From: Rhea pennata
Taxonomy: Eukaryota > Chordata > Aves > Rheiformes > Rheidae
Length of the DNA: 64,000 nt
Direction of reading: 5' to 3'
NCBI RefSeq assembly: GCF_028389875.1
Contig: NC_084678.1
Location: 15,902,899 to 15,966,898 of the forward strand
Shown: positions 23,669 to 45,330 of the stretch, piece after piece
Numbering within the stretch: position 1 is the first letter of the stretch
Layout of the letters: each line of letters begins with the position of its first letter
The notes under the pieces: model-generated
What the model was told of the DNA's origin: nothing
The model's database searches: none
The model's input: the letters and a program-made list of their open reading frames with translations, nothing else
Position numbers and translations under genes: made by a program

Positions 23669-23754
23669 ATGGAGAGCCTGAGCAACAGCCTGAAGAAGAA
23701 AGCAACAGAGAGGCACCACAGGGCAGAAGTGATGATTGCTGGAGAACAACTGAG
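23669..23754 (+). CDS. DEPTOR-like: DEPTOR-like exon 1 (N-terminus, 28.7 codons)
   Basis: The ATG at 23669 has G at -3 and G at +4. The exon encodes [20 protein letters not shown], then VMIAGEQL and AG of an Arg codon before donor GTAGGA. The end matches the human GEQLR sequence just before DEP1. An in-frame ATG at 23414 would add 85 residues. I prefer 23669 because it gives a length close to the family. Confidence 0.87.
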
Positions 23755-26700
23755 GTAGGAGGCAACGGGACTCAGATGCACTCCTTCTGTCTTCTAGGCT
23801 GAGGCAGGGGTGTGCTCAGTGTTAGTCCTTGGGACTCTTGACTGCTTCCCGTTAGCAGGAGGCTCAAAATATTATCTTAAGCAAGCACTTTTGTCCCAGT
23901 TGGTAGGATCTCCTCCTCCCCTTTGGCAGCTGACTCTCCTCTCTCCCACCAGTTCCTTTCCCTTGTTACCTTGTTCCGCTCCTCTCAGCGCGACTGGGGC
24001 TCACCTGCCCTCCACCTGCAGGTATCTCAGACAGCAGATGTTTTTAGATGCAAACAGGTTTTCTGCTCCCCTTACATCTTGTCTCAAACTTGGACCTAGA
24101 TGTGGCGAGGTGCCCAGTTCTCAGCTGCATGGGAGCAGTACTGCCTGTATGCAGTTTGGGTGCATGGTTGGACTTTCAAAGGTGATTCAGGAGGCCGTCC
24201 CACGGGTGCCATGTTCCTGAATCATTTCACATAGCAAAATGTAGGGTCCTCTCTTTCAAAAGTCACTTGTGAAAATTTGCTTTTTTGTTATCACAATTCT
24301 TGAGTAACTTAAAAGATTTTTTCTTATGACAATGAAAATATATTCTACTATACAGAAAAACCTGCAAGACTGAGGAAACATTTCCCTTTTCCTTGTGGAT
24401 CTGAGGTTGGAAAAACAAAACTACTTCTAGGTATCTGACTGTAGGCTTTTCTAGCTCTTCAGCACAGTTTGCTTGTTTGCATCTGGGTCCATGCTGCTTC
24501 ATTTCAAAATGCAGGTAGAAGCTGGGAAATGCATCCTTGAATAATTTAAACAACCCAGAATGTAAGATTGCTAATGCAAGATCTGTAAAATTAGCCTTGT
24601 GTATCTATGTTGTCCATCCTCAGTGAGTCATATTAGCCTCAGCTTTATTTATTTGTATCATATTAAGGATTTATAACTTTCAAATAAGGATTAGGGCTCC
24701 ATCTTGCAAATACTGCCCATGTCCAAACTGACTGGATTTTAAATGTGTAGTGACAGTCAGCTGCATTTCCAGTCTGTTATCTTTCCCCAATACTGCTGTC
24801 CTGGCTCCAGAAATTAAATCCTTTCCGTAGGTAACAACTAGGAGAACTGCTGTTAGGGAGTGGAGGACTGCATCAAACCTTTCTGCTTTTGCAAGATTTG
24901 CAGCCCAAATTATAAACCAAGTTTAGAAAATGAGCTTAGTTTTTTTATAGGGAAAAGCAGCTGTTGATCTTGGAGTGAGTAGCTTCATTTCAATAATTGA
25001 GGGGTAAAGTTATTACTTTTTCTATCCTATGGGCAGAGCAGGCTTATCCATATATATATTTTTTTCTGATTTGCCCATCCCAAGTGATTGCAGTTTATAA
25101 ATGGTCTAATAGCGTGGGCTAAAGAAGAGGGGTCAGGTACTCAGAGAGACAATAAGATTATCCACCCATGTGTTAAAGCTGCAGTCAGATTCGTGCAAGG
25201 GGAATGCTGTGCCTTCCTAGGTCTTTTTACAGGAAACCAGCATATCAGATTGCCTATCAGTCTGGCAGCTGTGTGACTGTAAAGAGGAGAAAGGGATACA
25301 ATAAATCTGTTTGTTGAATAGAACTATTCTCCTATACTGCACAATGCTCTAGTTCTTAGAAGCAAGGAAAAGACATAGTACAAATGTTACACTCTTTGGA
25401 TAATTGATACTATGAATCCTTTTTTTTTTCCTCCAAATATTTGTCTGGAAACTTAACTCCTCACTGCCAGCCTGAATGTGCCGTGAACCTTTAAAAAGGA
25501 TGCTGAAATCCTAAAGGAAGAAAACATTTGTGCAGGAAGGGAATATTTTTCTGTTAGAGTGACTGAGATGATCTTGGAGAGAACTTGAAACAAGCAGACA
25601 AACTTTTTGGTGCACTCATCTCCTCCCCCCCCCCCCCCCCAACTAGAGTTCCTTGGAGAATCCTTGCCTGAGTTAGGGAGCTCACAGAATCTCAGATGGT
25701 TTTTGGGCTGAGCCAATTGCAGTGAGAGTGCATTTTGAATTGCCTCGTCCTCTCCAATCTTTTATGTTATGATGAGCTTGGTGCAAGTTACTTCTCTGAG
25801 CAGCATGGTAGAGGGGTAGGAGGAAGCACAAGCCATGATCAGGAATGTAGAGACAAGCTCTCACCTCAGAGGTTAACATACACTAAAAACAACAACACTG
25901 GCAGACACATGCTGTTTTGCCAACACTTGATTGTAGAGAGCAAACCTGTTCTGCCCTTGGGCAGTCTGGATTGCATCACACCTCTGACCTGCTCTTGAAC
26001 ACTTGCCTAGAGAACAGCAGGTGGATTTCATCCAGTACAACTGCTCTTTTCCTCAGCTGTGTTTTGTGGGTGACAGATCTGAATGCCAGTGAAAGACCCT
26101 AAGGTGTCCAGTGCTCACAGTGATGGAGAGGTGAGTGGGATCAATAATCTTTCTGCTGGTGCCTTGGCAAGGAGCAGTCACATCCTTCTCCGTTAAGCTA
26201 GGCAAGAGCCTCTTCTCAGCGTAGAAAGACTGGAAAGACAGCTGCTGGATAGCAAAGAGTTTAAAAGCCTGGGGAGGAAGGTGAAGAGAGAGACTCCACT
26301 AACCTGCTGGCTCCCCTCCTTCTTTCTGTTGCAGCTAGTCCAGCTGAAATGAGAATTACCTGAAGCCAGAATACAGGGTGCTGAGTGTTTGAGCCTGTCT
26401 GTCTCTTGCACTTCCAGGAACTTCAGTTTGACATGTAGAGAGCAGCTGTGTTTCAGAGATGATACGAAGCTTCCCAGGGCTCTGGGCGTCCGATAGGTAG
26501 GGATGGGGAAACGGAGGCAGGGAGGCTGGAGGACCTTGCCTCAGGCAATAGCAGAGGGAAGCAGAATGAAATGTCTGCATTGTGCTCTGCAGCTTATGCC
26601 CACATAAGCAATAAAGGAGCCTTGCAGTCATTCTGGGAGCTGCTTTTCGAATGTGAATTCTGTAAGCCTTGATCAGCAAATAATGCTGCTGTATCTATAT

Positions 26701-29700
26701 AAAATCCCAAACATTTGTTTTCTCTACTTTCCACTTCCTGCCCTGCCTCCTCCCCACTGTTTTGTTTAACGAAACAAACCTTTGCTCCATCCTCACGATT
26801 CTTTGGCTTCCAAGGAAGTTTGCAAATCCCTCTCAGTTTGGTTTGGCCAGAGGGATGAGTCTGTTCAGTGTTGGGACAGCTTTCTGAGCCAGAAATAACT
26901 GCACAATGGAGGGGTAAGGGAAAGGTTCGTGGGGATGACCAGGAACGAAACTGATCCTAAATAGATCAAGGGGATACTGGATGACAGCATCAGACACAGA
27001 GTCTGTGAGGGCCCCACAGCTTCCACAGGGATGCTGCTTTCCAGCCCACAAAGAGGGAAAAGAGGAATTTGGCCGTTGGTCTCTCCTCATCAGAAAGATT
27101 AAGATTTCCACTGCTATCTTGATATTGTGTTTGACAGAGCTGTTGTGTCAGACTCTCATTCCTTATATCTTCTGCTGTTACTCTTTTTGTTCCAGGCACA
27201 CACTCTTGCATGAAAATCTCTCTAGGTGTACTAGGTGTTGTGTGTGTGCAGCAAAGGGCAGGAACTGGGTTTCTGGGTGGCACTTTGTAGGAGTCCAGTT
27301 AGTCTTGTAGCAACAAATGGCTTATGTGCACAGAGCTATTCTGGAACAACTACTGTACTTTAAATTCACACTATTATAATCTGAGTTTCTTCAAGTATAG
27401 ATGAGTCCTCATACAATCTCTCTCCCAGGTGTTTTTCATGGTCAAGTGAACCAGCAGTTCTTTAATAACTGCATTAAAAGCATTAATCACTCTTAGATGT
27501 AAAATACACTCAGTAGATCTATTTCTCAAAGAAGTAAGAGGGAAGATGGAAGGTTTTCCCCTATGAGGAAAACAATTGTGAGTTCAAGTACTGTACAAGA
27601 TGTTCAAAGGTAATGAATGATTTATTTGGATACCCAGATTGAGACACTGTTAAATGCTAACATTAAGTGCTAATGTTGTGATGCTCTGAAAATTGGACTC
27701 ACTTAAAGATATCTAGTCGAACTGCTAAAGGTTATATGCCTGGCCAAAATACTGGGCCCACAGAAGGTTTTGGTAGCTCTCTGTTGAATTCAGATCCTTC
27801 AATGAAGTGAAGATGTCTTTCTAGAAGAATCGTGTAACACAACTTGATGTGGGAGTCAGCAGGTAGAATCTCTAGGCTATGTTCAGAAGATCAGACTAAA
27901 TGATCGGAGTGGTCTTGTCTGGTTTTTAGCCCATTAGTAAGTTTTCAGCGCTGATAAAAGTGAAGACTAGAAAGTAGACTTGTACTTGCAGGGATTTTTT
28001 TTTTTTTTTTTGAGATTCAGGTCCCGTGCTCCTCTGTGTACATTTAAATGAGTGGAAATAAAACACTTCTGTACCACTTTGGCAGGGCTGATACAGTCAT
28101 GCCACGCTTTCCCCTTCTCTCCGGAATGCACCTGTGCTTTTGCAAACATGGAGCGTAGCAAATGGGGTTTTACTGCTTGCAATGCTCACTCTGCTGTATG
28201 GCCCACATTGTGCCTCTAGCAGCAATTTTGCAGAGATGCCGTTGTGGCTATTCCTGCATTTTATGGATCATTTAAAGATAGGAATAAAAAAGATTCTTCT
28301 GAAGTATCTTTTCAAGGCTGTTCATTTGTATTTGATTGCTGTGGGAATGTGAACTGAAATTAATAGCCTTGAAAGATCCACCTTGACATTTGAGATGCCC
28401 AAAGTCTGTTTAGGTGGGTAGGAGGTGAAGGGAAGCTCGGAAGAGCTATTCGCCACCAGCCCCTGTGGAGGCATTCCTACTTCACACAGACATATGGTCT
28501 GTGCCCAGTGACTGCAGCTCAAGGAATTGCTCTGACTGTCCAGTAACACAGGAGAACTAGCACCTTTTCCATTACAAGAAAGCCTCTCGCTTCTGTGTCC
28601 GCCCTGGATTCAGACTCTCTGTTGTAGGAGCACATGAAATGTGAATCCTCAGGAGAGGAGCTGCTTGGGTTGCTCCAGCGGTGGACTTCCGAAATACCCT
28701 TGGAAGAGTGACTGCCTTTGGGAAGAGCAGGGGAGGCTCGTGCCAAGAGTACAGCTTGGCCTGTTACTTGTGAAAGTCCTTTCAGAGGGAAGACAGCTCT
28801 CAGGCACTTCAGAGACTCTCTTCACAGCAGAAGTATGCTGCCAGCCTGTGTAGTAGAGGGTAGCTATCTCAACCTAGAATTTGAATGGAGAGAAAGAGTA
28901 GGGCTGTTTTCATGTCTGAAAGTAGCTGTGATAAATATTCACATGCCTGGCAGAAGGGAAATGCCAAGCCATTGTACTGAAGGAAAAATATTTCAAGTCT
29001 TACCTCTACTGATTTTATGTCATTAGTTACAGGGATGCCAAAAAAAAAGACACAATGCTTTTCTTTTTCCCCAGGAATGTAGCACCTGCAGTAATACAGC
29101 CAGAAATCCATTGCAAAAAAGTTCAAATGAGCTAATCCACACCTTGGCTTACAGAATAGTATAATTAATTTTTCACTGGAAATAATCCTGTGAAATGGTA
29201 CAAAAGCCTTTTGATGCAATATACAAAATCTAATTAAGGCAAGTGCAATTGGAAGGGAAATATAGCAGAAAAAATGATTTCTGGGTAACACCTTGCATTT
29301 ATTTAGATAATTAATAATTTCACCTCCTTTACAGTCATTCAGTGGCTGACCAAAAATCATTAGGGAAGGCTTGATTCTAGTCAGGTATACTGTTTTCATA
29401 AAAATAACTACCTGGAATAGAAACAATTGCTAAGAAGTATCAGGAGATGAAGTGAATAGTCAAAATGTTCAAAAATGCAAAGGAAAGATCTGTTAAAAAA
29501 AATCTATTTTTTTTAGGAAGATAACAAAGAATATTTCAACTTTGGCAAGGAACAATAATAAAAATAGAGCTTGTATTTGTGAAAACCTAGAGGAGATTGA
29601 GAAAGACCTGTTGACAGATTTGAATGGAAAGTATGTCTGGAGCCACTCTGTGTGAGAAGGACAAATGCAGAGAATTACAGTACTTTAAACCAGCATAGGA

Positions 29701-32700
29701 AAATTCCCTTGTTCTGGCATCCTCTCTAAAAATTGAATGTGTTGGAGCAGATGTTTGTGCCTGCACCAAGCTCGGTCAACAGAACAAGCCTCCCAGTAAT
29801 GCTGTCTGTAGCATTTGGGATATAGTTTCACCTAAATAGGGGGAAATACAAACCAGGGAAGGGACACAGCAAACAGGAAAAAGCTGGATCCAAGAGAGGG
29901 AACATCTCAGATTAGGAATAGAAAACCAATCTGACTTCCAATCCATGACAAATTCTATGTCATATTTGTAACAACTAAAGTGACCTACACACTGAATCCT
30001 GTGATTTTTTTTTTCTACTTACACTGCTGCATATTTGCCTTTCCACAAGGTTACAGAGAATGAATAATAATGCCTTTTTAGCAACCTTGACAAAGAAACA
30101 GTTTGGTTACCCAAAGCAGCCTGTCCAAAGCAAATGCATGTGAAAGCAGCACGCAGACCGCGAAACGAGAGGAGTGTTTCGTAACAGTCGATTCTCGTGT
30201 TCCAGCAAGCATATCCTTGTGTTATTCCATTCTCTTTATTTTTCCTTTTGAAGAGGTAAAATGTACACAGGGAAGGTTTTGGCGTTTAGAAAAGTCATCA
30301 TATTCAGTTACACATCCTTCCGTAACAATTTTTATCTGGAAGCACGACTGTAAACCAGCCAGTTTCATTAGCTTTGTTTTTCCAACATAATTTTTTGGTT
30401 GGTTTATAGGGAGTCAGCTGAGCTGTTCGAAGACGCAGTTGGGTTTATGTCCTTCTGTATGTGAAGGACAACATTTTTGTTTCTCTTTTGTTGACAGGAA
30501 ACAGTAAAGGAGAGGAAAATTAGCAAGGACACAGGGACACTGAGTAGTACATCTTCTGGTGCCTTCTGCACTGATTCTGAGGGCAAAATGGCAACTTTCA
30601 CATGAAAACAGCATGAAGTGCCAGGACGTTGCTGCTCCAGAGACGCTCAAATACTGCTTAGGTTCTTGTCTTGATAATTGTTTATGATGGAGTAGCTTGC
30701 AGAATATATAATAGATTTTTAAAATATTTAAGATTCCTAGTTTTTTAATGGTATTCATTTGTTGAAAATCCTTTTTCCCCTTATTCATAAGTTATGTACG
30801 TTTTCTCCAGTAGTCTGAAAAATGGAAAGAAAGTGTGGTGGAAACAGTTTTTTTTCAAGCCAGTTTTTATTCAGGCCTTGTGTGATTATGCTCTGTGTCA
30901 TTGTGGGTGAAGATATATACATACATACATATACGTATATATGTTACAACATATATATGTGTATATATGTTACATATACAGTGTTTATAGACTTCTGCAG
31001 ACACTCAACAGCAATGGAGTACTTTTGGTTAAACAAAGTGGAAAAAATAAAAATAAATTAAAAAAAATAAATTCTCAAGTTCTCTGAACTTGAGAATTTG
31101 AGGCAGGCCAGTTGAAAGCAGGATGTCTCTTTCTAAAGATGCTCAGGAACTGGGTGTACCTGAAATTTTTGGTTTAGTTTTTCAAATTGCTTTCCTTATT
31201 TGTCTGCACTGAAAAATTCTAATGTGATTTTTTTTTTTTTTGTATGTTACCTGGAAGGTCATACATACAGCAATATACATATGTCCTTGAAAGTCTTTAA
31301 GAATTATATTTGCTCATAATAACCGGAACATTATTTGCAATGATCAGTGAAAAAATATTCTTCACCAGCCAAGGGTCTTAACTTTATGACTTCTGAGAAC
31401 CTACTATTCCTTAATCCTATAATATAGAATAATCCATTGTTTTCTGTTAGATTTCAGGATATTTAGAAATTCTTGTATGGTTCCTGAAAGCATTGTCCAA
31501 CAGACAACATCATGTATGATGTGCAATACAGATAGTTTTGTCAAAAATACTAGACAGGACAAAAGAACCTGAAGCATTAAATAAAGAAATGATCCAGTGA
31601 TTAATGCCTTTTTAAAATATACTGGCCCAAGGCAAAACTGTGACTTGAAATGAGTAATTTGAAATGTGGAAAAAAAAAGAGTTAGGGAGGGGATATTAAT
31701 TAAACATCTCCTCTCTGAATCTGCTGCGTGCACTGGGCATTTTCCAGGGTTAGTATTTTGAAAACAGTAATGACTACAGGGCACACATTTGGCTTCTAGT
31801 TAGATCTCATGCCAAATTTGGTGAGCTTTGGCCTGAATACATAAGATGTCTGTGCTTTGCAGTTTGCTCGTGTTAAGATCCTTTTAAAAGTAAAAGCCAT
31901 TCTCACCTGAGTAATCTTTATTCAGCTATATCTTCCCATCAGAGTCATCAGGGTTCGCGGAATAGGGCTCTTGCAGATACGTTCTAATAAACTCCGTCCC
32001 AGTCTATCCCAGCGTGAACCAGAAAGCGTCAGGAGTAGCCATGGGGTTGAAGGCCATGCTTTCTGTGAGCGAGACGTCTGGTGTGCGTTCACTGGCCAGC
32101 ACTAATACACGTGAGCAGGACTAGTCCGATACTGTGCGCTGTATATTAGTGGGTACAGGAACGCAGCATGGAATTAGCCTGATGTTCCTCTTTGTTGGCT
32201 ACGTACAGAAACAACAAATACTCCCATTTATGTTCCCACCCTGAGCTATGACTAAGACTTCAGCCTTTGTCCTGGGGGAAGCTACTCTTACACAGTTATG
32301 GGGAGAAGAGAGCTAGGTACAGAACTGTGCCAATAACATTTTTTTTAAAAAATAAAACCTTTTTTGGCCCTTTTTCACAAGCTCCAGTTAGCTGCTGTGT
32401 TTTTTTAGAGGCTTTTTTAGTAAGATTCAGAACAAGTCTGCTGCTGACAATTACAAAAGCTGTATAGTGATAGTAGGAGAGAGGGGAATTTTGAAGAGAG
32501 GCTCCTTAGAATTGACTGATGCAGTTTTGCAAAGCAAAAAGGTTTAGCTAAGCTTATAAGTCTCTGAGTACTTGCCAGAAGTCCCAAAACATGAGTGGTT
32601 TCTCCAGGCTGGGTAGATACTGAGCTGTTAGACTCTAATGTCCCTGTAACTCCAGCTATGTTCAAAGGTGTTCTTTCACTCTAGGCTTCGCCTCCATGAC

Positions 32701-35700
32701 GGGAAGCTCATTAAGGACAGACGTTACCACCTCCGAACATACCCAAACTGCTTTGTGGCAAAGGAGCTCACAGACTGGCTGATTGACCACAAAGAAGCAC
32801 CTGACAGAGAGACGGGTATCCGCCTAATGCAGAAGCTAATGGACCATTACATCATCCATCATGGTTTGTGGATTTTTTAGCTACTTTTTAAGTCTCCCCA
32901 GAGAGGACACCTGAGTATCTGGTCACAGTGTTTGTCAGTCAACCCAGGAAATGGGAGCAGTTAAGTCCCTGTTTTATGACCCTCACATGGTGCGGGCTCC
33001 CAGAGGAGCTAGAAGATTACAGGCAAGTAAGGCCACACAGAATTGAATCTCTGTTAGGTTGTAATACTTTGGAGGATGTCTTAATTCCCTGTGCCACAGA
33101 GAAGAGAATAGGGCTGTGTACTGGTAAAAAGACATCTTAAGTGTCTCTTATTTGAAAGCAAGTTCAGTAATATCTGACCTGTATTCCTTACAGCAAATGC
33201 AGCCACCTAAATAGAGTGGTGGATATTTTTGCAGATGCTTGTCTTAGCCCATGTTTGCATCATGCAGAAATGGAAGCTGAATGATAGTGGATACTTCATG
33301 TGTGCATCAAAGTTTATTTTTCACCATATCTGCACAGCACCCCTGGTTTCTCAGTATATGTTGGGGTGGGAGAAGTAGGGGTGTGGAATCCATGCCAATC
33401 AGTGCAAAAGGTAATCCAATCCCTTTAGACTTGAGGCCAAAGTATCCTGCAGGAATGTCTCCCTTAGAAATTGTGTGTGATGCCATTTTAAAGACTTTTT
33501 GAGTCAGATTCAGACAGCCTCTGCTGAAGTCTTCCTGTTCTCTCGATTCCTGTGTGATGCTGATATGGAGAAAACACCATTTATTGCATGACAGTTGTCC
33601 ATATCCATACAGGGCCGTGCTTAAAAGACCAGGTGTTTAACCAAGTCTGGGACTGTTTCCCTGCCTTGACCTTTTCTGCCTTTGACAACACATCTCCTAC
33701 TGACAGGCCAAGAGCAAAGGTTCCTAAATAGGAAGGTTTTCAGTTTCAATGAAGATTTCTACAGTTTTATCTTAATTATGGTTTTCTGTAGACATATCAG
33801 GGCTTTGCACAAAAACATTTTTGCTAATAAAAGAAGAAAATAATTTTCTGGGTTTTTTTTGTTTTGTTTTTGTTTGCTGTGCATAGAAAGGCCTTTACGT
33901 TAAAGAACTACATGTCAGTGGCATGGTGGGGGACCCGGCTTTTCTGGGTACCGTTGGAAGGGAAGCTTTATGTTACTGTAAGTTTATATGGAGAGTAAAT
34001 GACCAAAAGGATTGTTGAATAGTTATCTAAAACATAAAGACTCTAACGTGCTTTAGTGCTTGCTGATAAGGAACTGTATGTTTAGGACAGGAAATAGCAG
34101 TACTTCAAATCTGTGAAGAACTTCCCCTCCCTGGGATTTCAGGCCCAAGTAGGCTCCCATTAAGGAAGAATGAAGTCCTAGTCTTTCCAATAGATCTGGG
34201 AGACCATTGCCCTCCCTGGGAAGGTTTGTGACTAGGAGTGGCTGAGCTTGGAGAAGAAACCTGCTTACTCTCCTTGGCTGAGCTCTCTTGCAAACCTGCT
34301 TCCAAGTCTTCAGGACAAGAGATGTGGTAAGCTGGAGTTGGTAGTTTATTGCAAGAGGATGCAGCTGAGGAGATATAAGCAGATGACATTCAATCTGATT
34401 TTCCTCCCCCTTCTACAGAGCCCAGAAATAGCTGTCTTTGCCCACTGCAGTGCAAACATTCTCAGTTGCCATCTGCTGCTTGCTGAGATTAATGCCTTTT
34501 ACATTAAGGTACCTTGAATAAAAATAAGCTTTGCTGCTGTGCTTTATCGCAAAAGAATAAAGCTGAAGCAGTTAGTTCTTGGTTAACCATTAACTCTCAA
34601 AACTGATTATTTTTCCATCTTTTTCAGTGATTTCTTCACAGCTAGGCTGTTAGGTTCAAATAAATCCATTAGTTGATTAAACCTATGCAGCACTGAGTAC
34701 CAGTGCTGTTTTGATTGCTTATCATGGGCACGTCCCTCCTATTTCTGTGATAATTCCTTGCAGAACACAGAAGCTGACTTTCTAACTTGTCTTATGACCA
34801 TTAATTTTCATTAATTCTATGGTAACAGGCCTGCCTGCTAACCACAGCACTGTGCTAAGTGCTTTGCAATTGGCTGTCTAAAGTGTTTGCACTCTTCTTT
34901 GCTGGGATCTAGAAGGCACTAATTATCTCACGAAAATCATTGTCTGTGCTGATTCTTAATGATCTGATGTGGTTTGAGCTGTTACTCTATTAACATGCTG
35001 GAAACATGTTGAAATTGGTCTTCAAGTAACAAAAATCGTTTGGCTTTCCAAGAACTCAGTCCTGTAAGGTACTCTGCTCAGTTTCCAACAATCAACCAAC
35101 TGTAAATGGCATCTGATTCATTATTCCTTTCAGTTAAGAACATGAAAACTTTCACCTTTTAAAGCAATGGTCTGAAGCTACATGATTGTCTGATGAGTCC
35201 TGTGTTTTTCAATGTCCTGATTTGGCACTATGAAGAGTGTTCAGGAAGAATTTTGAACTCCAGATAATCTGATAGTTACGGACATTGAGCTGGTTACCAA
35301 AAAGTAAATGAAGCTTTGCAGTGTCATTCGGTTCAGAAGAAATGAACAGCTATTACTTAAAATTATCACAAGAATGTCTTTTGTCTTTTTTTTAAATGCA
35401 CAGTATTTTAGTGAGGAAATCTCTCTTTTTCCCCCCTCTTTGACTTTTTTTTTTTGTTTGTTTTTTTTTTTTTTTGTTTTCTGGGCATATTCTTACTTTA
35501 CTCTTTTTTAACCCCTGAAACTAAGCAGGAAATAGCACTTTTCTCACTTCAAGTAGGTGAACCTGAAGAAAGGCAAGACCCATTTGATAACTGGACTGTG
35601 ATTTTTAGGGGAGGTTTAGTCTATGAATCTATTGCAGACAAGTTTAATCTCAAAACTGAATCTCAAATATTTGCCCGTGAAATATTGCATATACTTAACA

Positions 35701-38700
35701 GCCATGCATCCATAGACTGTGCTGTCATTCCCAAGATAATTGTAAAAATTAGGCTTTTCATATTGATTGAATTATTCCAGTGGTATGCATCTAGCTTTAA
35801 AACAATCTCTCTCTAGAGATCAGCCTGCCATACAAATAAATTAGGCAAGATTGGCACAAAACAATGTGGAAAAGTTGATGTCATTATGACATTTTATATA
35901 CAAGTATTTTCAGCAAGGACAACGGTGATCTAATGGGGTTTTGGATGCCCTGTTGGAGGTCCACCCCCTGAAGTTTGCTTATGCATGGCAGTGGCAGTTC
36001 TGTTTGTTTCCTTTTTGTCTAGACTGAAAAAATATTAAAAAAAAAAATTTTAATGGATCAAAGGGTAGACTGGGATTCAAGCTTCCCTAAGGAATTCTAT
36101 ACAGTGGGAGTGATTTCTCCCACCAGCTGGGCTGCAGGCATTTGTAAGCACCTAATTTGGGCACCGAAGGCTCAAATGCTAGTTCCAGTGTGGACTGGTT
36201 GATGCACAGATGGCTTCAGCAGCATGGTGCGAGAGGCCTAGAGAAGGGCATCACACACAAGCCTCCATAGATTTTAACTTAGAGATAACTAAAACTGATG
36301 AGTCTGTGCTCTGTGTAGCTCTGTTGTCTGCCTGTTATGGGCTGAAATCTAGGCTGTGATGTTTGCACCGTATATTACTGATGTGCCTGCTCTGGACTCC
36401 TTTCAGTTTGCGACGAGCACTCAGACTACAAGGATGCCAAGCTGCTGTACCGTTTCCGCAAGGATGATGGGACCTTCCCTCTCAATAAGGATGTGAAGGT
36501 GTTCATGAGAGGACAGAGTCTTTATGAGAAGTATGTGAGTCCTTTCCTTGCAAAATAATTCTTAGCAAAGGCTTTGGAAGTGCAGTCTGCTGGTTCCACT
36601 TGCTGCTGATGCTTTGCACCTGAGAATCACCACTACAGCCGGCCTCTTTCTTCCTTTCGTTTTATACCTCATGCTTTAGCATCAGGATATACTGTTTCCA
36701 AAGTCTTGTCACAGCAACAGAAAAATAGGGCTTTTTGGAGCTTAGAGAGGGAGAAAAGCTGGAATCTGAACTCACTGATATTTTAAAGGGCTCCTGCGCA
36801 GCTGCTAGTTCCGGGATTTAGTACAAAGAAGTACTGTGATCTCGTTCGCAGTTAAAGTGCTGGTTGGGACAAGCACATCTAGTGTGTTCTTACCTCTCCC
36901 GCAAACTCCCTGGCTGAGTGAATTTTCCACCAGCACTTAGGAGTTATATCCCACTGAAATCAGCAGGATATAGGATTTTCAAGGTCCTTCTGGACCTGGA
37001 TCCCTATACTTCACTTAGTCTATCTGCAAAATTTCCAGTGGAAATATCAATTCTCGTACACTAAAGAAATTTCTGTGTACCTAGGCATTAATGAGAAATG
37101 TTTTATTCTTCTTGATTGATTCTGATTCTAAATCCAGATGATCCTAACACACCTGATAAGTCCTTTCCTTAGATTGAGTTCAACTTCAAAGCTCTCTCTG
37201 GACCTGTCTTCTTTAACAGCCTCCTAATATTTTCTTGATCCTTAACAGACTGGAAGTCAGATTCACAAATTAGTACTGAGGGAGAATTCCTTCTTCAGGC
37301 AAACAGATGGGTGATTTTTGCTGTCTCCCTACCATTCTGGCAGAAGTGCATCGTTTGTATTTTGCTTTTGCACAGCTATGGCAGAAGAAATTGGGCAGTG
37401 GAGAAGAGCCAAATGCTCTTCTCATGACTGAGGTTGCTGCACCCTCTCGTGGATGTACTGGATTTAGCTTTCACATATGTAGCAAACAATGAGCTTATCC
37501 TTACTGAAATGCATCTTCTCCATCAATTTGAATTATCTGACATTTAGACATACATTTAGTTGCTTATTTGGCTTTTCCCCTGCAGTCTTTAATTGAGGTT
37601 CCAGCTGAACTGATTTTGCTGAAATTGCTTCCTCCTTTGTGATAAAGATATACAAAACTACCTGATTAGCATAGAAACGTGCATCTGTGCATTTTCCCCT
37701 CCCTTCCCCCTGATTCTAGACAGAAATATTTTGTCTGGAACAGTTTGCCTGCTTCTCTTGGTCTTGTTTTGGCTGGTTTCAGCTCCCGCTGAGCTCCTTG
37801 TGTAAGTAGACAGGGTTTCTAAGGGTCACTGGAGCCATGTTTCACCTCTGTACCAGGCTGATCAGTCTTGAAGATTCAATTCTGAAGGTGAGAGAGGAAA
37901 ACTCTGTGAAGTACCAGAGGACATTCTTGGGCTGTGAAATGATTGACTGGCTCATTCAGGAAGGAGAAACAGCAAACCGAAAGGAAGCTGTGGAGCTGGG
38001 CCGTGCACTTCTGGAGCATGGGATCATTCAGCATGGTGAGTGAAGGTTCAAGCTGATGCAGAGAAGGAAAGTAAAAGATGAGCATAGCTACCAAGGCTTT
38101 GCTAGGAACAAATCCTCATTCATGTCATCCAACAAGTGCTGGTCAAGTGCCCACTTGGAGATGGTAATGGGTCCATTTAGTTCTATGTTTGGAGTTTGTG
38201 ACCTTTGAAATGGGAGCAATCTGACATCGCCTACAAAGGCTTTGAGATGAAATTTGAGATGAAGTTATTTCTCTGCAGTTCTTCAAAGCCTCAGGCTGGG
38301 GGAATCCTCCCCTAGTTTTGAAGGCTGTTTGTGAAGATGTGATGTTCAGTTCTGCTTTGCTGGAGATAACCTTCTGCAGGAATTGGATTTTCAGTACAAA
38401 AGGTATTGCCTTGGGTATGGCACAAGTTGAGGACTGTGACTCAAAGTGGCCTGCCTCTGGGAGATGGTATCTCTGAAAAGCCTGGCTTGCTGTTCCAATT
38501 TCCCTGTGGAGAGCCAAGGGACTGGCATCCTCAAACAATCAGAAAGATTAAAATATATCATAAAGGCATTAAAAATAATTAATTTGGGTCCCTCAGTGTA
38601 TTTGCTGTGTATATATATATATTTTTTACACATCCTCAGCCTCTCTCCCCTCTTCTGTTCTCTCCCAGTGTCCAACAGACATCACTTCTTTGACAGTAAC

Positions 38701-41700
38701 ATCCTCTATCAATTCTGGATCAACTTCCGCCGGAGGCGTCGTCTCACAGAGTTACTCAATGAGAACTCTTCTCGTGCTCTGTCCGAGAGCCCGGACAGTC
38801 CCTTCTGTCTTCGCAAGCTCAACCCAGACCAAGGCAACACCAGCTTTCTTTCCGGTAATGTGGGTGTATTTGTGGAAGGGTGCAAAAGCAAGCCTGTCGT
38901 GACCAGAGTAAAACGGAGCCTAGAATGTTATTTTAGGCATACTACGAAGTAACTACTCATCCCAAGGATTGGTTTGTGGTGGATATTATGATGCAGTGGC
39001 AGTTTCTTCCTCAGTTGCCCATCTCAGGAAAATAACTTCTCAGGTCTCTAGTATTACTATTTCTAATAGTTATAAGCTCCCTGCCATATATAAATGATAT
39101 GATGGAATGACTGGCTGGGTGGATGAGGGGAGAGCAGTGGATGTTGTGTACCGTGACTTCAGCAAGGCTTTTGACACTGTCTCCCATAACATCCTCCTAG
39201 ATGAGCTCAGGAAGTGTGGCTTAGACGAGTAGACGGTGAGGTGGATTGAGAACTGGCTGAAAGGCAGGGCTCAGAGAGTCGTCATCAATGGCGTGGAGTC
39301 CAGTTGGAGGCCTGTGGCTAATGGTGTCCCCCAGGCCTCAGTCCTGGGTCCCATCCTGTCCATCTTATTCATCAGTGACCTGGATGAGGGGACAGAGTGC
39401 CTCCTCAGCAAGTTTGCTGATGATACCAAGCTGGGAGGAGTGGCTGACACACCTGAGGGCTGTGCTGCCATTCAGAGAGACCTGGACAGGCTGGAGAGTT
39501 GGGCAGAGAGGAACCTCATGAGGTTCAACAAGAGCAAGTGCAGAGTCCTGCACCTAGGGAAAAATAACCCTAGGCAGAAATGCACCAGGACAAGCTGGGG
39601 GCTGACCTGCTGGAGAGCGACTCTGAGGAGAAGCAGCTGGGAGTGCTGGTGGATGACAAGTTGACCATGAGCCAGCAACGTGCCCTTGTGGCCAGGAAGG
39701 CCAATGGTATCCTGGAGTGCAGTAGGAAGAGTGTTGCCAACAGGTCGAGGGAGGTGATCCTGCCCCTCTCCTCAGCCCTGGTGAGGCCTCATCTCAAGTA
39801 CTGTGTCCAGTTCTGGGCTCCCCAGTACAAGAGAGACATGGAGCTACTGGAGAGAGTCCAGCACAGGGCTACGAAGATGATCAGAGGGCTGGAGCATCTG
39901 CCCTATGAGGAACGGCTGTGAGAGCTGGGCCTCTTCAGCCTGGGGAAGAGAAGACTTGAGGGGGGATCTTATCAATGTGTACAAAGTACCTGAAGGGAGG
40001 GTGTCAAGGGGACAGGGACAAACTCTTTTCAGTTGTCCCATGTGACAGGACAAGAGGCAATGGACAGAAACTGAAGCACAGGAAGTTCTGCCTGAACGTG
40101 AGGGGGAATTTCTTCCCTGTGAGAGTGACGGAGCGCTGGACCAGGTTGCCCAGAGAGGTTGTGGAGTCTCCTTCTCTGGAGATCTTCAAGGCCTGCCTGG
40201 ATGCAACCCTGTCTGACATGCTCTAGGTGACCGTGCTGAGCAGGGAGGTTGCACTAGATGATCTCCAGAGGTCCCTTCCAAACTTATTGATTCTATGATT
40301 ATTTCTTTTCCAGGAGGTGAAGGAATTTGTATTTTGAAGCAGGACTTTATCTCGACTCTTGGTCCTGATCCAGTTGTCCCACATACCTCAATTTCCCATA
40401 GACTGATGTGGGCTGTCAGGAGACAGTAATGCCAGACTGGCATGGGAAAGCCTCCAGTTCAGCTTTTGAATGAGAAAAAAAAATCAACACTTAGGCAGAA
40501 ATAAGCAGGAGAGGAAACTGAAAATGAACAAATATGGGGATGTACGTGTATAGGGGTGTGTGTCTGCCTTTAAGAGCTAGAAAATCTGATTCTTGTCTTT
40601 CCAAGGACAGCAAAGAACAATTTCAGCAGACACAGACCATTCTCTAATATATGCAAAACTCCTCTAACCTCAAAACATGACAGCAATTTTGTATTTAGAA
40701 TTCCACTATGCCACACTACATTGTTTTTTACCCCTGAAATCTCTTCTTTAAAGCTGGTTTTATGCTGTCTGTGTTCAACTGCCACCTTCAGTGTGTGTTT
40801 ACCCTTCAGATGTGGGCCAGACTGATGGAGTAATTTTATTGTGTTAGGCTAGTTTATTCCTTTCTTAGTTTTTTTTTTTTTTTTTGTCTCTTTCAGTCCA
40901 GCCCACCAAGGAGATTAAAATTGTCTCAGCAGTTCGAAGGAGCAGCGTCACTTCCCTGGCTGGAAACTCCAATCCCTACTTCAGTGCTACTCCTACATTG
41001 GTTTTCCCTCCTGTGGCTGAGTGCAACCCAAAATCAGGTCAGAGCTTCTGCATTGCCATGTTATTGTGTAAGATATATCTACATCCCTAGGGTATGGGCT
41101 GGCTCTGGCCTTAAGTACAAACCTATCCACCATTTACTTGGTAGTATGCAAGAGGGGAGGGTCAGCCTCTCTTCTGGGGCTTGATTTGAGAAGTTGTGTA
41201 ATTATCTTGGAAAAAAATTGAGATGAATTCAAAGATTTCTGTGTGTAGTAGTTGTAGCTGCTTCTAACATCTGTTCCTCAGCCTATGGTAATCCCCATGC
41301 TTCCTATTAAGCACTTTACTGTATGAAACCCTTGATTCTGATAGGATCTGTCACCTTCCTCTCTAGTGTTAAAGAGACCAGTTACCAATGAAGAGCTTCT
41401 GTCCCCTGGGGCCCCCTACATCAAGAAAACACTAACTGTAAGTGATCAGTATGAGCAGTATTGCTAATCTAATAGTACTGAACTCTCTGACCACTCTTTG
41501 ATAGCTTTGTATCTGCTGCTGTGACCTCTGTTCGTTGAAACTTTGATTGCATGTCACATCATCACACTAACATTGCGAGTTTCAGCGGGTTGATGTCTTC
41601 AGATATTCTTGAGAGTGAAACTGGTGTTCACTCTCTGCAGCCTCTGTTTTAGTGTGGTGTATATTAAAGAGGTAGAATCAGGAAAGGAATTGTTTCCTGG

Positions 41701-44700
41701 GCAGGAAAAGTCCCATTTATATTTCATCCAGCTCCATGCAAACTGAAGATTCAGTCAAACCTTGTGACAGTTGAGACTTTGATATCCCTTATTCTCTCAG
41801 TCACAAAGATGTCACCTTTCTGCACTGTCTTATGCATTTTTTTGGCTTCATGCTACAGACTAGATGTGGAAGGTGTCACTAGGTTTATGAAAACGTAGAG
41901 TTGTGTGGAAAATGGTTGTATGGAACAGAAGTGAATGGGGAACATTTGAGGGCCACTCTGCTCTTCCTCATAATGGGCTGTATCTTACTTTTTTTTGTGT
42001 GTGTGTGTGAACAAAATAAATACACTGCAAAATCTCCAGGATGCTAGTGAAAACCTTAGTTTTGGGCTTTTGTTCTTCGAATTATTTATAGAGATATAGA
42101 ACCTGATAGTTGCAGTCAGTCAAAGCAGAGCTTGTGTGTGCTGCCCTGTAGATCCTGTTATGCTTGTTTATTTTTGTGTAAATGATCACTTGTCGAGAAC
42201 TGACACACTTCCTACTTCTCGGACCTTTCCTATCTGGCTCCATTAGGGGAAATTCTGTAAAACCAACTTAGGGAGTGTGATGGCTGCCTTGCCTTCCTAG
42301 TTTGATCCAAGTGAGGTTATAGAAGGGAAGGGCTGAGGATCAGGTCCCCAGATTAACTCTGCCGTAGAAACTGATGATGGGAGAAACGAGCAGATGATCG
42401 GTGTGAGATGTATGAGGACATGCCGTTCATTCTCCTGCAGAATGCTCTTGCCTTGCCCTTCAACTCTGCCAGGCTGTGCTTTTCATGGCTCATTTCCTTC
42501 CGCTTAGCTGTGCAGTTGCTTTTGTTTGTTTATATGGGTAATACACAGAGTGCTTTGAGAATTTGTTTTCTCTTTAAGTCACATCAGATGGACAACATAT
42601 TACAGTAAACTGCTCTGACAAGCTGAGAACAGAGTGGGAAAAGTTGAAGGAGTGGATAATTCTATCCTGGAAATGCTGTCCTGTGCCAGTAAAAAGGCAA
42701 ACACTCTGTGTGTGTTCTCTAGAAATGTCCTCAACATGTTCTTAATACATGTCCTGCATTTAACTTCATGTTGCTTGTGCTTCATTCTTCTATACTTACT
42801 GGCATGGCACATTAACCAGAAAACAGCTTTTCAGATAGCAAGTAATTCTGCATCTCATATGACATACAGCCTAGGAATATTCCATCATACTCTTCCAAAT
42901 GATGGTAGTGTAGGATTAAATGGTAAGTGGAGGATTAAATATTTCTTAAAAATATATATTTTGCCCAAATGTAGCAAGACACTGAACAAAGCAAGGAGAA
43001 GTGTTAATGATACTTGCAGATAGAGAAATAAACAATCCAGAAGGGGAAAGCAATGGTTGACATGGTTGGATTTGCAGATGTTGCCTGTTTGAAAAGTTTC
43101 ACAACCTCAAAAAATGAAAGCAAGAACTATCTACAGCTGAGCATGACACACACGAGAAAATGGAAGGGATGTTTAATTGCCAAGGATGCTCTCTGAAACA
43201 CCACATTGGCACAGGTGAATGAAAAGGTCCACCAGAATAAAAGCAGAGACAGAAGAACTCTTCTTGAAGACAAGATTCCCAGGAGGAATTAGAGCCTAGT
43301 TGCCATGCTGAGAACTGTCAAGAGATTTATAACTGGAGATATGGAAAGCTCACTAGTGCCCAAGTATGTCTTCCTCCACCGGAGAGGCTGAGAAAGAACT
43401 GTTGGGTGACACTGACTATTGCTAACAGAGCTGGAAGCAGGACATAAAGGTCCTTTTTTTTTTTCTTAATGGTCAGAGGAGCCTTGAGGTAAACCCTTTT
43501 TTCTCTCCCACTCATCACAGAGACTAGGATCTTGAGGAGAATTCTCCACACCACTAGAGCTGTTACATCTCATCTATCCAGGTACTGCAATTGGAATTTG
43601 GTTGCATGTCATTGCTCTGTGGTAAGGTGAGCCATTCACTTGTGGAAGTGTTTAAGCTGATCAGTTAACCTTAGCTTCAGTACAGCAGAACCTCTTCCAC
43701 GTGAAGAAAACAAAGCCCATTCCTTTGTTTTTAAAGCCATTTTATTCTGCTTGTAGATTGTGGGGGATGCTGTGGGCTGGGGGTTTGTGGTCCGAGGAGG
43801 AAGACCTTGCCATATCCAAGCTGTGGACCCAGGAGGACCTGCTGCTGCTGCAGGGATGAAGGTACTTCTTGATCATGGTAACTTAAAATGAGAGAAGCTT
43901 TACGTTCTACTTGAGCTTTTCAAGTTGAAAGCATCCTCTGTGCTAATCCTACCACCTGCAACAGAGAAAAATCTGCTTGTGTTAGCTCAGGAAACTTCAA
44001 TAACATTGTGAGAGGCAGGGTGAAAGACATACTGTCCTGCAGGCAGTGTACTGTGTGTTTCTGTTCCATGGGCGGGGTTTGACTTTTGCCCCAGCAGTTC
44101 AGAGACTGGGCAGCTAAAATAGTCAAAACTAAGCTGTCCTGTGGCAAACTTTAGAGCTGTTGAAACTATTTTAGGTACTGAAAGCAGGGAATTCCCAGTT
44201 CAGCTCTAGTAACTATATATAACTAAAGGAAAGCAGGAAAGGAGCAGATCTTTATCATGAATTATTTGTTCTTACTGCTTCTGCGATGGTAATGTATTTT
44301 GTATTTGCCTACTATTAACAACATTGCTCTGTGCAGAACTGTTCTTTATGTTCAGGAAAGCTGAATAACTTTGTATCGATAATTTCCTCTCGATTTGATT
44401 CCTCTGGTAATCTCCAGTATTTTCAGCTCAGTTGAAATGAGCTGAGGTCTTGAATATAATTTTAGACCAACTATTCAAGCATATATGGGCTGTGTGTTGA
44501 GCTGCAGGCCTAGTTTTAGGAGTGAATGAAGGAAATAGTAGTTTCACAGTTCTGCTGTAAAAACCCTAACAGGGAGGGAGTAATTTCAACAAGCTAGTAT
44601 AACTCTAAAATCACTTGGATATTTAAAATAATGGGTTTCTTCAGAGGAAGAGTTTGACTCTGCTTCAGGCAGCTTTGGAAGGAGATGGGTGAATTTGTTT

Positions 44701-45175
44701 CATTTACTCAGGAGCCTAGTTCATCTCTCCCCTACTAATCTCATTTGCTACCAAACTGCCAAATGTTAATATTGTGTCTCATTTCCATCTGTGAAATGAA
44801 CCACTGCTCATAAGTGAATCTTTTTACTTTCTGCTAGCTCACTGTTTAAATCCCCTTGGTCCTTTTCTTATGATACAATGATTATAGCACAGTGATTATT
44901 ACTGTTGCTCATAGAGTAGTAATGCTTTCTGGTTTGTAGGATTTTTGTAGAAAGTTATTTGCTTTACAAAGTCTGGCTGTAGTTAGTCATCAGCAGTAGT
45001 TGCCTGCATGCATCAGTTCAAGGTAACCAGCCCTTCATCTCCCTTGCAGGTGTGTCAGCTTGTTTTCTCTGTGAATGGCATGTACGTTTTGCACTTGGAC
45101 TATCAGACCATCAGCAGCCTCATCATGACAGGACCGCGAACTCTTGTCATGGAAGTCATGGAAGCCATTGAATGA
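23669..45175 (+). CDS. DEPTOR-like: DEPTOR paralogue: DEP-DEP-PDZ mTOR-interacting protein, complete, nine coding exons
   Basis: Exons: 23669-23754, 32685-32863, 36407-36530, 37857-38035, 38669-38854, 40897-41037, 41367-41437, 43757-43861 and 45050-45175 (stop TGA). All introns are GT-AG and every phase joins, giving 398 residues against about 409 for human DEPTOR. Order: short N-terminus ending in GEQLR; DEP1 (about 30-112, with KTYPNCF-like [16 protein letters not shown]); DEP2 (about 137-210, [11 protein letters not shown] and HGIIQH); basic RRRRR patch (about 210-214); Ser-rich linker; PDZ (about 323-396, carboxylate-loop GWGF). DEPTOR binds the mTOR FAT region through its PDZ and restrains mTORC1 and mTORC2; the tandem DEP module binds phosphatidic acid and mTOR. 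The protein follows human DEPTOR along its length but differs at very many positions (for example NPYFSATPT in the linker), so I read it as a paralogue and not the orthologue, helped by its position next to COL20A1. The coding frame is intact, so it is probably functional. Confidence 0.93.
25625..25640. repeat. Poly-C tract (16 C)
   Basis: Uninterrupted C run in intron 1 of the DEPTOR paralogue. Long C runs are uncommon and can form i-motif or, on the other strand, G-quadruplex-like structures. Confidence 0.95.
26498..26556. mobile_element. MIR-like SINE relic
   Basis: The stretch GGATGGGGAAACGGAGGCAG followed by a GGAGG and a CTTGCCTCAGGCAATAGCAG-type motif resembles the conserved part of MIR elements (GGAAACTGAGGC ... 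ACTTGCCCAAGG). It is heavily diverged; recognition is by eye only. Confidence 0.35.
27888..27930 (+). mobile_element. Possible ancient CR1 3'-end fragment
   Basis: AGATCAGACTAAATGATC followed by a GTGGTCTTGTCTGG segment resembles the CR1 3' motif (GGACTAGATGATCT...AGGTCCCTTCCAACC) seen cleanly elsewhere in this window. It is strongly decayed and may be chance. Confidence 0.25.
30912..30979. repeat. ATATAC-rich low-complexity tract
   Basis: Alternating purine-pyrimidine repeats of ATAC and ATAT, including an inverted repeat TATATATGTT-AC-AACATATATA. It could extrude as a cruciform. Confidence 0.9.
31069..31099. repeat. Perfect inverted repeat (14-bp arms, 3-nt loop)
   Basis: AAATTCTCAAGTTC, then TCT, then its exact reverse complement. 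An A-rich stretch lies just before it. In RNA from either strand this would fold into an uninterrupted 14-bp stem. Confidence 0.95.
32685..32863 (+). CDS. DEPTOR-like: DEPTOR-like exon 2 (DEP1, main part)
   Basis: Acceptor TTCTTTCACTCTAG, donor GTTTGT. It encodes [20 protein letters not shown] through [19 protein letters not shown] to MDHYIIHH. It is 179 bp, the same length and phases as exon 4, which encodes the matching part of DEP2. Confidence 0.96.
32864..36406 (+). other. Intron 2 of the DEPTOR paralogue
   Basis: 3.5-kb intron. It has T/G tracts (33853-33877; 35447-35478) and a possible DNA-transposon coding relic (35550-35816). The rest shows nothing I can name. Confidence 0.85.
35550..35816 (+). 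pseudogene. Possible DNA-transposon transposase fragment
   Basis: An open stretch of about 88 codons reads as well-mixed protein rather than AT-driven noise, with [18 protein letters not shown] near its start and [14 protein letters not shown] near its end. The W-x(4)-RGGL-x-Y core followed by a basic, aromatic K-x-RLF segment recalls the C-terminal part of P/THAP- or hAT-type transposases as I remember them. There is no start codon context; upstream the frame runs into T-rich low-complexity DNA. The family assignment is tentative. Confidence 0.35.
36407..36530 (+). CDS. DEPTOR-like: DEPTOR-like exon 3 (end of DEP1)
   Basis: Acceptor CTCCTTTCAG, donor GTATGT. It encodes [20 protein letters not shown] then [20 protein letters not shown], which closely follows human DEPTOR. 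It ends in phase 2 and joins to a Lys codon. Confidence 0.96.
36531..37856 (+). other. Intron 3 of the DEPTOR paralogue
   Basis: 1.3-kb intron with no repeat or exon that I recognise. Confidence 0.85.
37857..38035 (+). CDS. DEPTOR-like: DEPTOR-like exon 4 (DEP2, main part)
   Basis: Acceptor CCTCTGTACCAG, donor GTGAGT. It encodes [19 protein letters not shown] through [19 protein letters not shown] to LEHGIIQH. It is 179 bp, like exon 2. Confidence 0.96.
38036..38668 (+). other. Intron 4 of the DEPTOR paralogue
   Basis: Short intron with a small TA repeat (38610-38623) shortly before the acceptor. Nothing else was recognised. Confidence 0.85.
38669..38854 (+). CDS. DEPTOR-like: DEPTOR-like exon 5 (end of DEP2, basic patch, linker start)
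   Basis: Acceptor TTCTCTCCCAG, donor GTAATG. It encodes [20 protein letters not shown], a run of five Arg, LTELLNEN, then a Ser-rich linker with [10 protein letters not shown]. The basic run follows the second DEP domain as in human DEPTOR. Confidence 0.95.
38855..40896 (+). other. Intron 5 of the DEPTOR paralogue
   Basis: 2.0-kb intron; more than half is a sense-oriented CR1 LINE (39105-40305). A 19-T tract (about 40868-40886) forms the extended pyrimidine tract of the next acceptor. Confidence 0.9.
39105..40305 (+). mobile_element. CR1 LINE, 5'-truncated copy with broken reverse-transcriptase frame
   Basis: The coding strand shows the C-terminal half of the CR1 reverse transcriptase: [24 protein letters not shown], the catalytic FADDTKLGG box, [33 protein letters not shown] and [14 protein letters not shown]. 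The frame is broken by a stop in place of the usual Trp (about 39230), a frameshift near 39580, a TGA near 39919 and a further frameshift near 39963, so it is inactive. It ends with the CR1 3' motif CTAGATGATCTCCAGAGGTC, CCTTCC and a TTGATTCTATGATT tail. It lies in the sense orientation in intron 5. Confidence 0.96.
40897..41037 (+). CDS. DEPTOR-like: DEPTOR-like exon 6 (linker with altered degron region)
   Basis: Acceptor after a long T tract (TGTCTCTTTCAG), donor GTCAGA. It encodes [13 protein letters not shown], as in human DEPTOR, then [17 protein letters not shown] where human has the phosphodegron SSGYFS and the following Ser-Pro sites. It ends in ECNPKS. Confidence 0.95.
41038..41366 (+). 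other. Intron 6 of the DEPTOR paralogue
   Basis: Short intron of 329 bp, nothing notable. Confidence 0.85.
41367..41437 (+). CDS. DEPTOR-like: DEPTOR-like exon 7 (linker to PDZ)
   Basis: Acceptor CCTTCCTCTCTAG, donor GTAAGT. It encodes [20 protein letters not shown] then KTLT, collinear with human DEPTOR. It ends in phase 0. Confidence 0.95.
41438..43756 (+). other. Intron 7 of the DEPTOR paralogue
   Basis: 2.3-kb intron with a short GT repeat (about 41996-42010). The open frames within it are short and lack splice support. Confidence 0.85.
43757..43861 (+). CDS. DEPTOR-like: DEPTOR-like exon 8 (PDZ, first half)
   Basis: Acceptor TTCTGCTTGTAG, donor GTACTT. It encodes [20 protein letters not shown] then [19 protein letters not shown] takes the place of the GLGF carboxylate-binding loop, as in DEPTOR. 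Confidence 0.96.
43862..45049 (+). other. Intron 8 of the DEPTOR paralogue
   Basis: 1.2-kb intron separating the two PDZ exons. Nothing was recognised. Confidence 0.85.
45050..45175 (+). CDS. DEPTOR-like: DEPTOR-like exon 9 (PDZ, second half, stop)
   Basis: Acceptor CTCCCTTGCAG. It encodes [20 protein letters not shown] then [20 protein letters not shown] and Glu, stop TGA 45173-45175. The end MEVMEAIE parallels human MEVMEELEC. Confidence 0.96.
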   Translation: MCQLVFSVNGMYVLHLDYQTISSLIMTGPRTLVMEVMEAIE

Positions 45176-45330
45176 ATGGAGGAGTCTCTCATCCCATCAC
45201 TATTTAGAAAAGCAGGACACTTGGCAAAGCAAGGATGGACTCTGGGGAGGGACCAAGCATGACCTTTCATTCTGAAATATTAGCCGGGCATTTTAACATA
45301 TCTTCAAATAAATATGTTCTAATGGACAAG
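45176..45330 (+). other. Short 3' UTR of the DEPTOR paralogue with AATAAA
   Basis: The canonical AATAAA at 45307-45312 lies about 130 nt after the stop and is followed by a GT-rich patch (GGATGTCGATGGTGGTGAG, about 45335-45353), as expected for a cleavage site. Longer 3' ends are possible. Confidence 0.6.
45307..45312 (+). terminator. Probable polyadenylation signal of the DEPTOR paralogue
   Basis: AATAAA followed about 25-40 nt later by a G/T-rich element. Confidence 0.65.

Follow-up and report, generated by a model that had tools for sequence, protein, structure and literature searches.

A DEPTOR paralogue beside COL20A1 in Rhea pennata has lost the β-TrCP degron of DEPTOR and probably encodes a degradation-resistant mTOR brake

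When analyzing a 64,000-nucleotide stretch of the Rhea pennata genome (the window, C16:15902899-15966898; positions without a chromosome label are counted from window position 1), we found a complete second gene of the DEPTOR type, at 23669-45175 on the forward strand. It is a paralogue, not the orthologue, of DEPTOR, which has a separate locus on C2 of the same genome. From the comparisons below, we consider it probable that the window gene is a DEPTOR ohnologue, that is, the second copy of an ancestral DEPTOR-FACIT-collagen pair, and that its predicted protein still restrains mTOR but would be resistant to degradation.

The window gene has nine exons, eight introns that all follow the GT-AG rule, and an open frame of 398 codons. 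The frame is closed on the upstream side by a stop at 23384, and the stretch from there to 23669 contains no in-frame ATG. Chance as the source of the nine-exon frame is excluded. A retrocopy origin was also considered and rejected, because the introns are all kept. Pfam searches of the encoded protein returned two DEP stretches (154.6 bits; cut-off 32.7) and, C-terminal after a long linker, a PDZ_6 domain (27.7 bits; cut-off 27), so that the DEP-DEP-linker-PDZ layout is complete. The gene and the 398-residue DEP-DEP-PDZ protein of the original prediction, with its nine exons and matching phases, could thus be rebuilt in full. The closest solved protein is human DEPTOR (611 bits, E value 6e-183), with a full-length match to 7owg_O over query residues 12-398; P-Rex2 and P-Rex1 come next, at 151 and 142 bits.

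The bird's own DEPTOR, assembled from 200 kb of C2, occupies C2:150573996-150645968 on the forward strand and also has nine exons, encoding 397 residues. Its match to human DEPTOR scores 788 bits, with 346 of 387 residues identical (89.4%). The window protein is identical to the bird's DEPTOR at 285/395 residues (72.2%; 286/395 in the pairwise alignment) and to human DEPTOR at 268/386 (69%). Grouping with human DEPTOR and a COL14A1-type collagen neighbor, the marks of a DEPTOR orthologue, belong to the C2 gene and not to the window gene. When the window protein was searched against its own genome (1.27 Gb), 27 matches were obtained, corresponding to the nine window exons, eight of the nine C2-gene exons, and 10 further ones that score 35 bits or less. 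No third DEPTOR copy is among the matches of this search, which scores best candidates only, and a third copy was rejected on this basis.

The two bird genes agree in all intron phases, and each is followed by a FACIT collagen of the same orientation. Seven exons are equally long in both: exon 1 with the start codon (23669-23754, 86 bp), exon 2 with the first DEP domain (32685-32863, 179 bp), exon 3 (36407-36530, 124 bp), exon 4 with the second DEP domain (37857-38035, 179 bp), exon 5 with the end of the DEP tandem and the start of the linker (38669-38854, 186 bp), exon 7 with the N-terminal extension of the PDZ domain (41367-41437, 71 bp), and exon 8 with the PDZ domain (43757-43861, 105 bp). 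The other two differ by whole codons, namely exon 6 in the linker (40897-41037, 141 bp versus 135 bp in the C2 gene) and exon 9 with the PDZ end and the stop codon, which is included in the coordinates (45050-45175, 126 bp versus 129 bp). Exon 3 ends at the donor gtatgt, and DEPTOR on C2 uses the identical boundary. The window gene was thus rightly described beforehand as collinear with DEPTOR yet widely different from it in sequence. A likely polyadenylation signal, AATAAA, follows at 45307-45312 (forward strand). Intron 5 of the window gene carries a retroelement relic with broken frames (39098-40310), presumably of the CR1 type; among the translated matches listed for it are stretches of C2 at about 150588.7-150589.4, 150713.9-150714.2, and 150753.6-150754.3 kb, and many of the matches are 80 to 95% identical.

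A difference that bears on function lies in the linker. The sequence SSGYFS of DEPTOR is a consensus β-TrCP site, where mTOR-dependent phosphorylation marks the protein for degradation (PMC8439657); the general β-TrCP consensus is given as DpSGX(1-4)pS (PMC4474599). This degron is intact in both the bird's own and human DEPTOR. In the window protein, aligned with these two, the corresponding position reads SNPYFS (codons for NSNPYFS at 40965-40985, forward strand), and the S-G core is lost. A D/S-S-G-type degron pattern was looked for throughout the window protein and none was found. Phosphosites have been lost as well. All 13 sites of the 13A set are still serine or threonine in the bird's DEPTOR, whereas 5 of the 13 are no longer so in the window protein (8/13 kept); these counts depend on an alignment of the three sequences that has a gap of two residues next to the degron. 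PMC8439649 names seven mTOR sites; one of them, 296, is occupied by leucine in the human chain that was compared, and the remaining six are all kept as serine or threonine in the bird's DEPTOR (6/6) and four of the six in the window protein. The lost degron goes beyond the original prediction, which had proposed a second brake on mTOR, and it changes the functional prediction.

The PDZ and linker surfaces with which DEPTOR binds mTOR have fared differently. The contact sites were taken from PMC8439657 and PMC8439649. In structures, the PDZ domain and linker residues 304-308 sit on the FAT domain of mTOR (PMC8439649). DEPt forms a second mTOR contact and is credited with the inhibitory effect in that study (PMC8439649); in contrast, linker-PDZ is described as the minimal inhibitory unit in the other (PMC8439657). 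The window protein is identical to human DEPTOR at 9 of the 10 residues of the PDZ interface mapped by nuclear magnetic resonance (338-342 and 358-362), at 5/5 residues of the linker groove motif CNPKS (304-308), and at 15/17 residues of the PDZ extension. The PDZ/FAT contact residues and CNPKS are thus shared with both the human and the bird's DEPTOR, together with the DEP-DEP-linker-PDZ layout. In the four linker patches touching the FRB domain, 15 of 21 residues are kept, against 19 of 21 in the bird's DEPTOR. Since the PDZ, groove, and extension contacts are kept, the window protein is likely to dock on mTOR. With the degron lost while the PDZ and linker mTOR segments are nearly unchanged, the predicted brake would escape the known destruction loop.

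The same ancient duplicate might alternatively no longer act as a general mTOR brake and have taken on a new or even opposite role, for example, mildly activating mTORC1 through PDZ-only binding, shielding mTOR from DEPTOR, or serving a tissue-restricted partner. PDZ-only-bound DEPTOR mildly activates Rheb-bound mTORC1 (PMC8439649), and the second DEP domain and the linker have changed most, with 43/74 and 62/95 residues identical to human, compared to 66/85 in the PDZ domain. On the other hand, little has changed in the first DEP domain (65/84) or in the PDZ and linker segments that were compared for mTOR contact, and the whole DEP-DEP-PDZ layout is intact. We regard such a change of role as unlikely, although it is the most serious competitor of the restraining function.

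The age of the duplication was addressed with a five-sequence tree of the window protein, the bird's DEPTOR, human DEPTOR, and P-Rex1 and P-Rex2 as the outgroup for rooting. The two DEPTOR proteins group together with the window copy outside, with bootstrap values of 85 (192 columns of the DEP tandem) and 81 (243 columns, after adding 51 PDZ columns). The window protein therefore does not fall inside bird DEPTOR, a placement that would have spoken against the original prediction. With lengths from the best tree (243 columns, LG+G4), the branch to the window protein (0.17) is comparable to the paths that lead from its node to the bird's DEPTOR (0.13) and to human DEPTOR (0.19). A duplication preceding the split of birds and mammals is supported by this bootstrap and by the parametric bootstrap described below.

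Several points weigh against an old duplicate acting as a degradation-resistant brake, and they concern both its date and its function. The approximately unbiased (AU) test leaves both other topologies standing, with p values of 0.08 to 0.28 overall: 0.28 and 0.11 for the two under LG+G4 with 192 columns, and 0.19 to 0.27 and 0.08 to 0.16 under four models with 243 columns. The tree has a very long outgroup branch, and with an analysis covering a single bird genome and human chains, the date rests on synteny and these five sequences. Among the 386 gap-free sites of the three-way comparison, 262 are identical in all, the window protein stands apart at 83, human DEPTOR at 20, and the bird's DEPTOR at 6, and all three differ at 15; at the 26 sites where just one of the two DEPTOR proteins agrees with the window protein, this is the bird's 20 times and the human one 6 times. 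A bird-lineage duplication would also give such a 20:6 split, part of which the longer human branch would explain. As for function, the second DEP domain (exons 4 and 5, 37857-38854) is the least conserved domain of the protein. β-TrCP also accepts non-consensus, degenerate degrons (PMC4474599), so turnover of the window protein may persist, and other ligases could act on it.

As the topology was left undecided by the AU test, we simulated alignments under LG+G4 in a parametric bootstrap, with 500 replicates per tree and three gamma shapes. Of the 500 replicates, 1 to 3 generated under a bird-lineage duplication attained the advantage of 2.30 log units seen in the real data, compared to 3 to 9 under the third topology and 217 to 251 under an old duplication; a 60-replicate parametric bootstrap gave 0/60 and 39/60. 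These simulations bear on the possibility that the window gene is a later, fast-evolving DEPTOR duplicate of the bird (or sauropsid) lineage, for which the AU test (p values of 0.19 to 0.28) and the 20 sites at which the two bird copies agree and human differs, versus 6 at which the window protein agrees with human but not with the bird's DEPTOR, could be cited. Such a duplicate is nevertheless very improbable, as it would reproduce the observed advantage in only those 1 to 3 of 500 replicates, would need a window branch running about 12 times faster than DEPTOR (0.283 versus 0.024), and would leave unexplained why the gene sits, in the same orientation, beside the sister of the DEPTOR-linked collagen.

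Substitution patterns point in the same direction as the intact frame. Silent sites of the window gene are saturated: by the NG86 method the synonymous divergence (dS) is undefined, the maximum-likelihood dS is 4.1, and 41 of 115 fourfold sites are identical. The nonsynonymous divergence (dN) is 0.17 to 0.20. Judged from its sequence, the gene is old and under strong amino-acid constraint. A decaying or silent gene whose frame is accidentally intact might be suspected from the fact that no such gene is listed in the human interval (PMC5024517). We give this next to no credence in view of 398 open codons over nine exons, splice sites that are all intact, saturated silent sites, and a low dN.

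The window gene is placed between ARFGAP1 and COL20A1. Upstream, open frames that start 8 to 10 kb before the window contain two catalytic exons, for which human ARFGAP1 (3dwd) scores 213.8 bits and ARFGAP3 95.7. An open frame at 5200-5595 on the forward strand has the appearance of an ARFGAP1-like C-terminal exon, which we take it to be. Downstream, frames from 60637 onward encode a von Willebrand A (VWA) domain, followed by fibronectin type III (FN3) exons beyond the window end. Of six FN3 frames seen, three were searched; among solved proteins, two of the three match COL20A1 best (5kf4 and 2ee3), and in the third search COL20A1 (2dkm) ranks below fibronectins. The location of a complete DEPTOR paralogue between these two genes, proposed from the sequence alone, was in this way confirmed. 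In the hg19 gene list of human 20q13.33 in PMC5024517, the order is NKAIN4, FLJ16779, ARFGAP1, MIR4326, COL20A1, CHRNA4, and KCNQ2, which agrees with the original statement that ARFGAP1 and COL20A1 are neighbors in human; MIR4326 is the sole entry that this list places between the two, and thus no DEP gene.

The downstream collagen was compared to C2 using forward-strand frames of at least 25 residues beyond 56300 and matches with E values of at most 1e-4 beyond C2:150646000. Ten frames matched C2, and the best matches of nine of them follow in rising order from C2:150710852 to 150728550; the tenth, at 72086, matches an earlier FN3 repeat on C2. Within the window, these matches comprise a VWA exon (60637-61065; C2:150710852-150711031, 55%), the next VWA exon (61854-62129; C2:150711750-150711878, 67%), a further one (62141-62404; C2:150715038-150715220, 57%), and the end of the VWA domain (63326-63742; C2:150715604-150715783, 46%), all in open frames on the forward strand. 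Given these collinear matches, both loci read a DEPTOR-type gene followed by a FACIT collagen on the same strand. From 150749150 onward, C2 holds a second stretch matched by the VWA exons; the collagen there accordingly carries two VWA domains, as is expected for COL14A1. It is called COL14A1 here by position and its two VWA domains, not by comparison with human COL14A1. With the same limit on that name, the separate locus on C2 bears out the mirrored DEPTOR-collagen arrangement that had been postulated for this genome.

The pairing extends beyond the two loci. A PREX1-like exon lies at C16:8.70 Mb (88% identical to human PREX1 over 34 residues) and a PREX2-like exon at C2:125.4 Mb (94% identical to PREX2 over 31 residues). 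KCNQ-family exons (PF03520) are found on the reverse strand at C16:16.09-16.10 Mb and C2:155.59 Mb, with others on C1, C3, C5, and C23; the names KCNQ2 (C16) and KCNQ3 (C2) are given by position only. The KCNQ-family gene at C16:16091892-16101098 (reverse strand) lies about 125 to 134 kb past the window end, consistent, as far as the KCNQ position alone tells, with the human order COL20A1-CHRNA4-KCNQ2. Four families are thus paired between C16 and C2, namely, DEPTOR, FACIT collagen, PREX, and KCNQ, and the neighbors of the DEPTOR-type genes are paralogues that agree in order and orientation (for the collagen, nine of ten frames), as expected of an ohnologue pair.

In human, KCNQ3 at 8q24 and KCNQ2 at 20q13.3 belong to the Hsa1/2/8/20 paralogon, for whose blocks the authors favored segmental duplications over genome duplication (PMC6585022). 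An ancient block duplication through a segmental event could accordingly have produced both loci. The four families pairing between both chromosomes speak against it, as does the assignment of vertebrate chromosomes to duplicated ancestral linkage groups (PMC7269912, whose passages used here hold no statement on chicken chromosome 20), and we judge a segmental origin to be improbable. The tree, simulations, and synteny support, within one bird genome and human, the earlier proposal that a whole-genome duplication gave rise to the second copy of the DEPTOR-FACIT-collagen pair.

The gene structures also suggest where the family came from. In the window gene (at 32863 and 38035) and in the bird's DEPTOR, each of the two DEP domains has a phase-1 intron right after an IIHH/IIQH motif; PREX1 and PREX2 each show the same at one DEP exon. 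Like the window protein, P-Rex1 and P-Rex2 have a tandem DEP and a PDZ region, with 35% identity in the DEP tandem, but they act as Rac exchange factors and are about 1,600 residues long. Since PREX and DEPTOR copies are linked on C2 and C16 alike and share this intron, a proto-DEPTOR may have arisen from a proto-PREX gene on one chromosome that was later duplicated.

In the scenario that we favor, an ancestral DEPTOR and FACIT-collagen block would have been duplicated in the early vertebrate genome duplications, leaving one copy beside COL14A1 (C2) and the other beside COL20A1 (C16). The window protein would dock on the mTOR FAT domain via its PDZ domain and linker groove motif and restrain mTORC1 and mTORC2 as DEPTOR does. 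SNPYFS, however, should be unreadable for β-TrCP, whose action mTOR-dependent phosphorylation primes, and the window protein would therefore escape this route upon mTOR activation. DEPTOR is a brake that mTOR can release; the window protein would act more steadily, resisting degradation, with transcription as the main determinant of its level.

No second DEPTOR gene is described in the titles or abstract openings of the papers listed by our searches of the open-licence PubMed Central literature, among which PMC10313321, with one mention of DEPTOR, recurs. Two papers listed for DEPTOR together with COL20A1 deal, by their titles, with ageing matrix biology and head-and-neck cancer. Presumably, a predicted model of the window gene exists in automatic annotation. 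More tentatively, and with somewhat less than even confidence, we propose that some vertebrates, including this bird, keep a second DEPTOR that is without the β-TrCP loop but with the mTOR-docking surface, so that restraint has two layers, a releasable DEPTOR and a non-releasable copy that was lost in mammals. If this is true, nutrient signals would set growth and metabolism differently in birds and mammals, and the retained degron-less copy would be a natural experiment on the purpose of the degradation loop. Results from loss of DEPTOR function in mouse and human would then not be transferable to birds without weighing the second gene.

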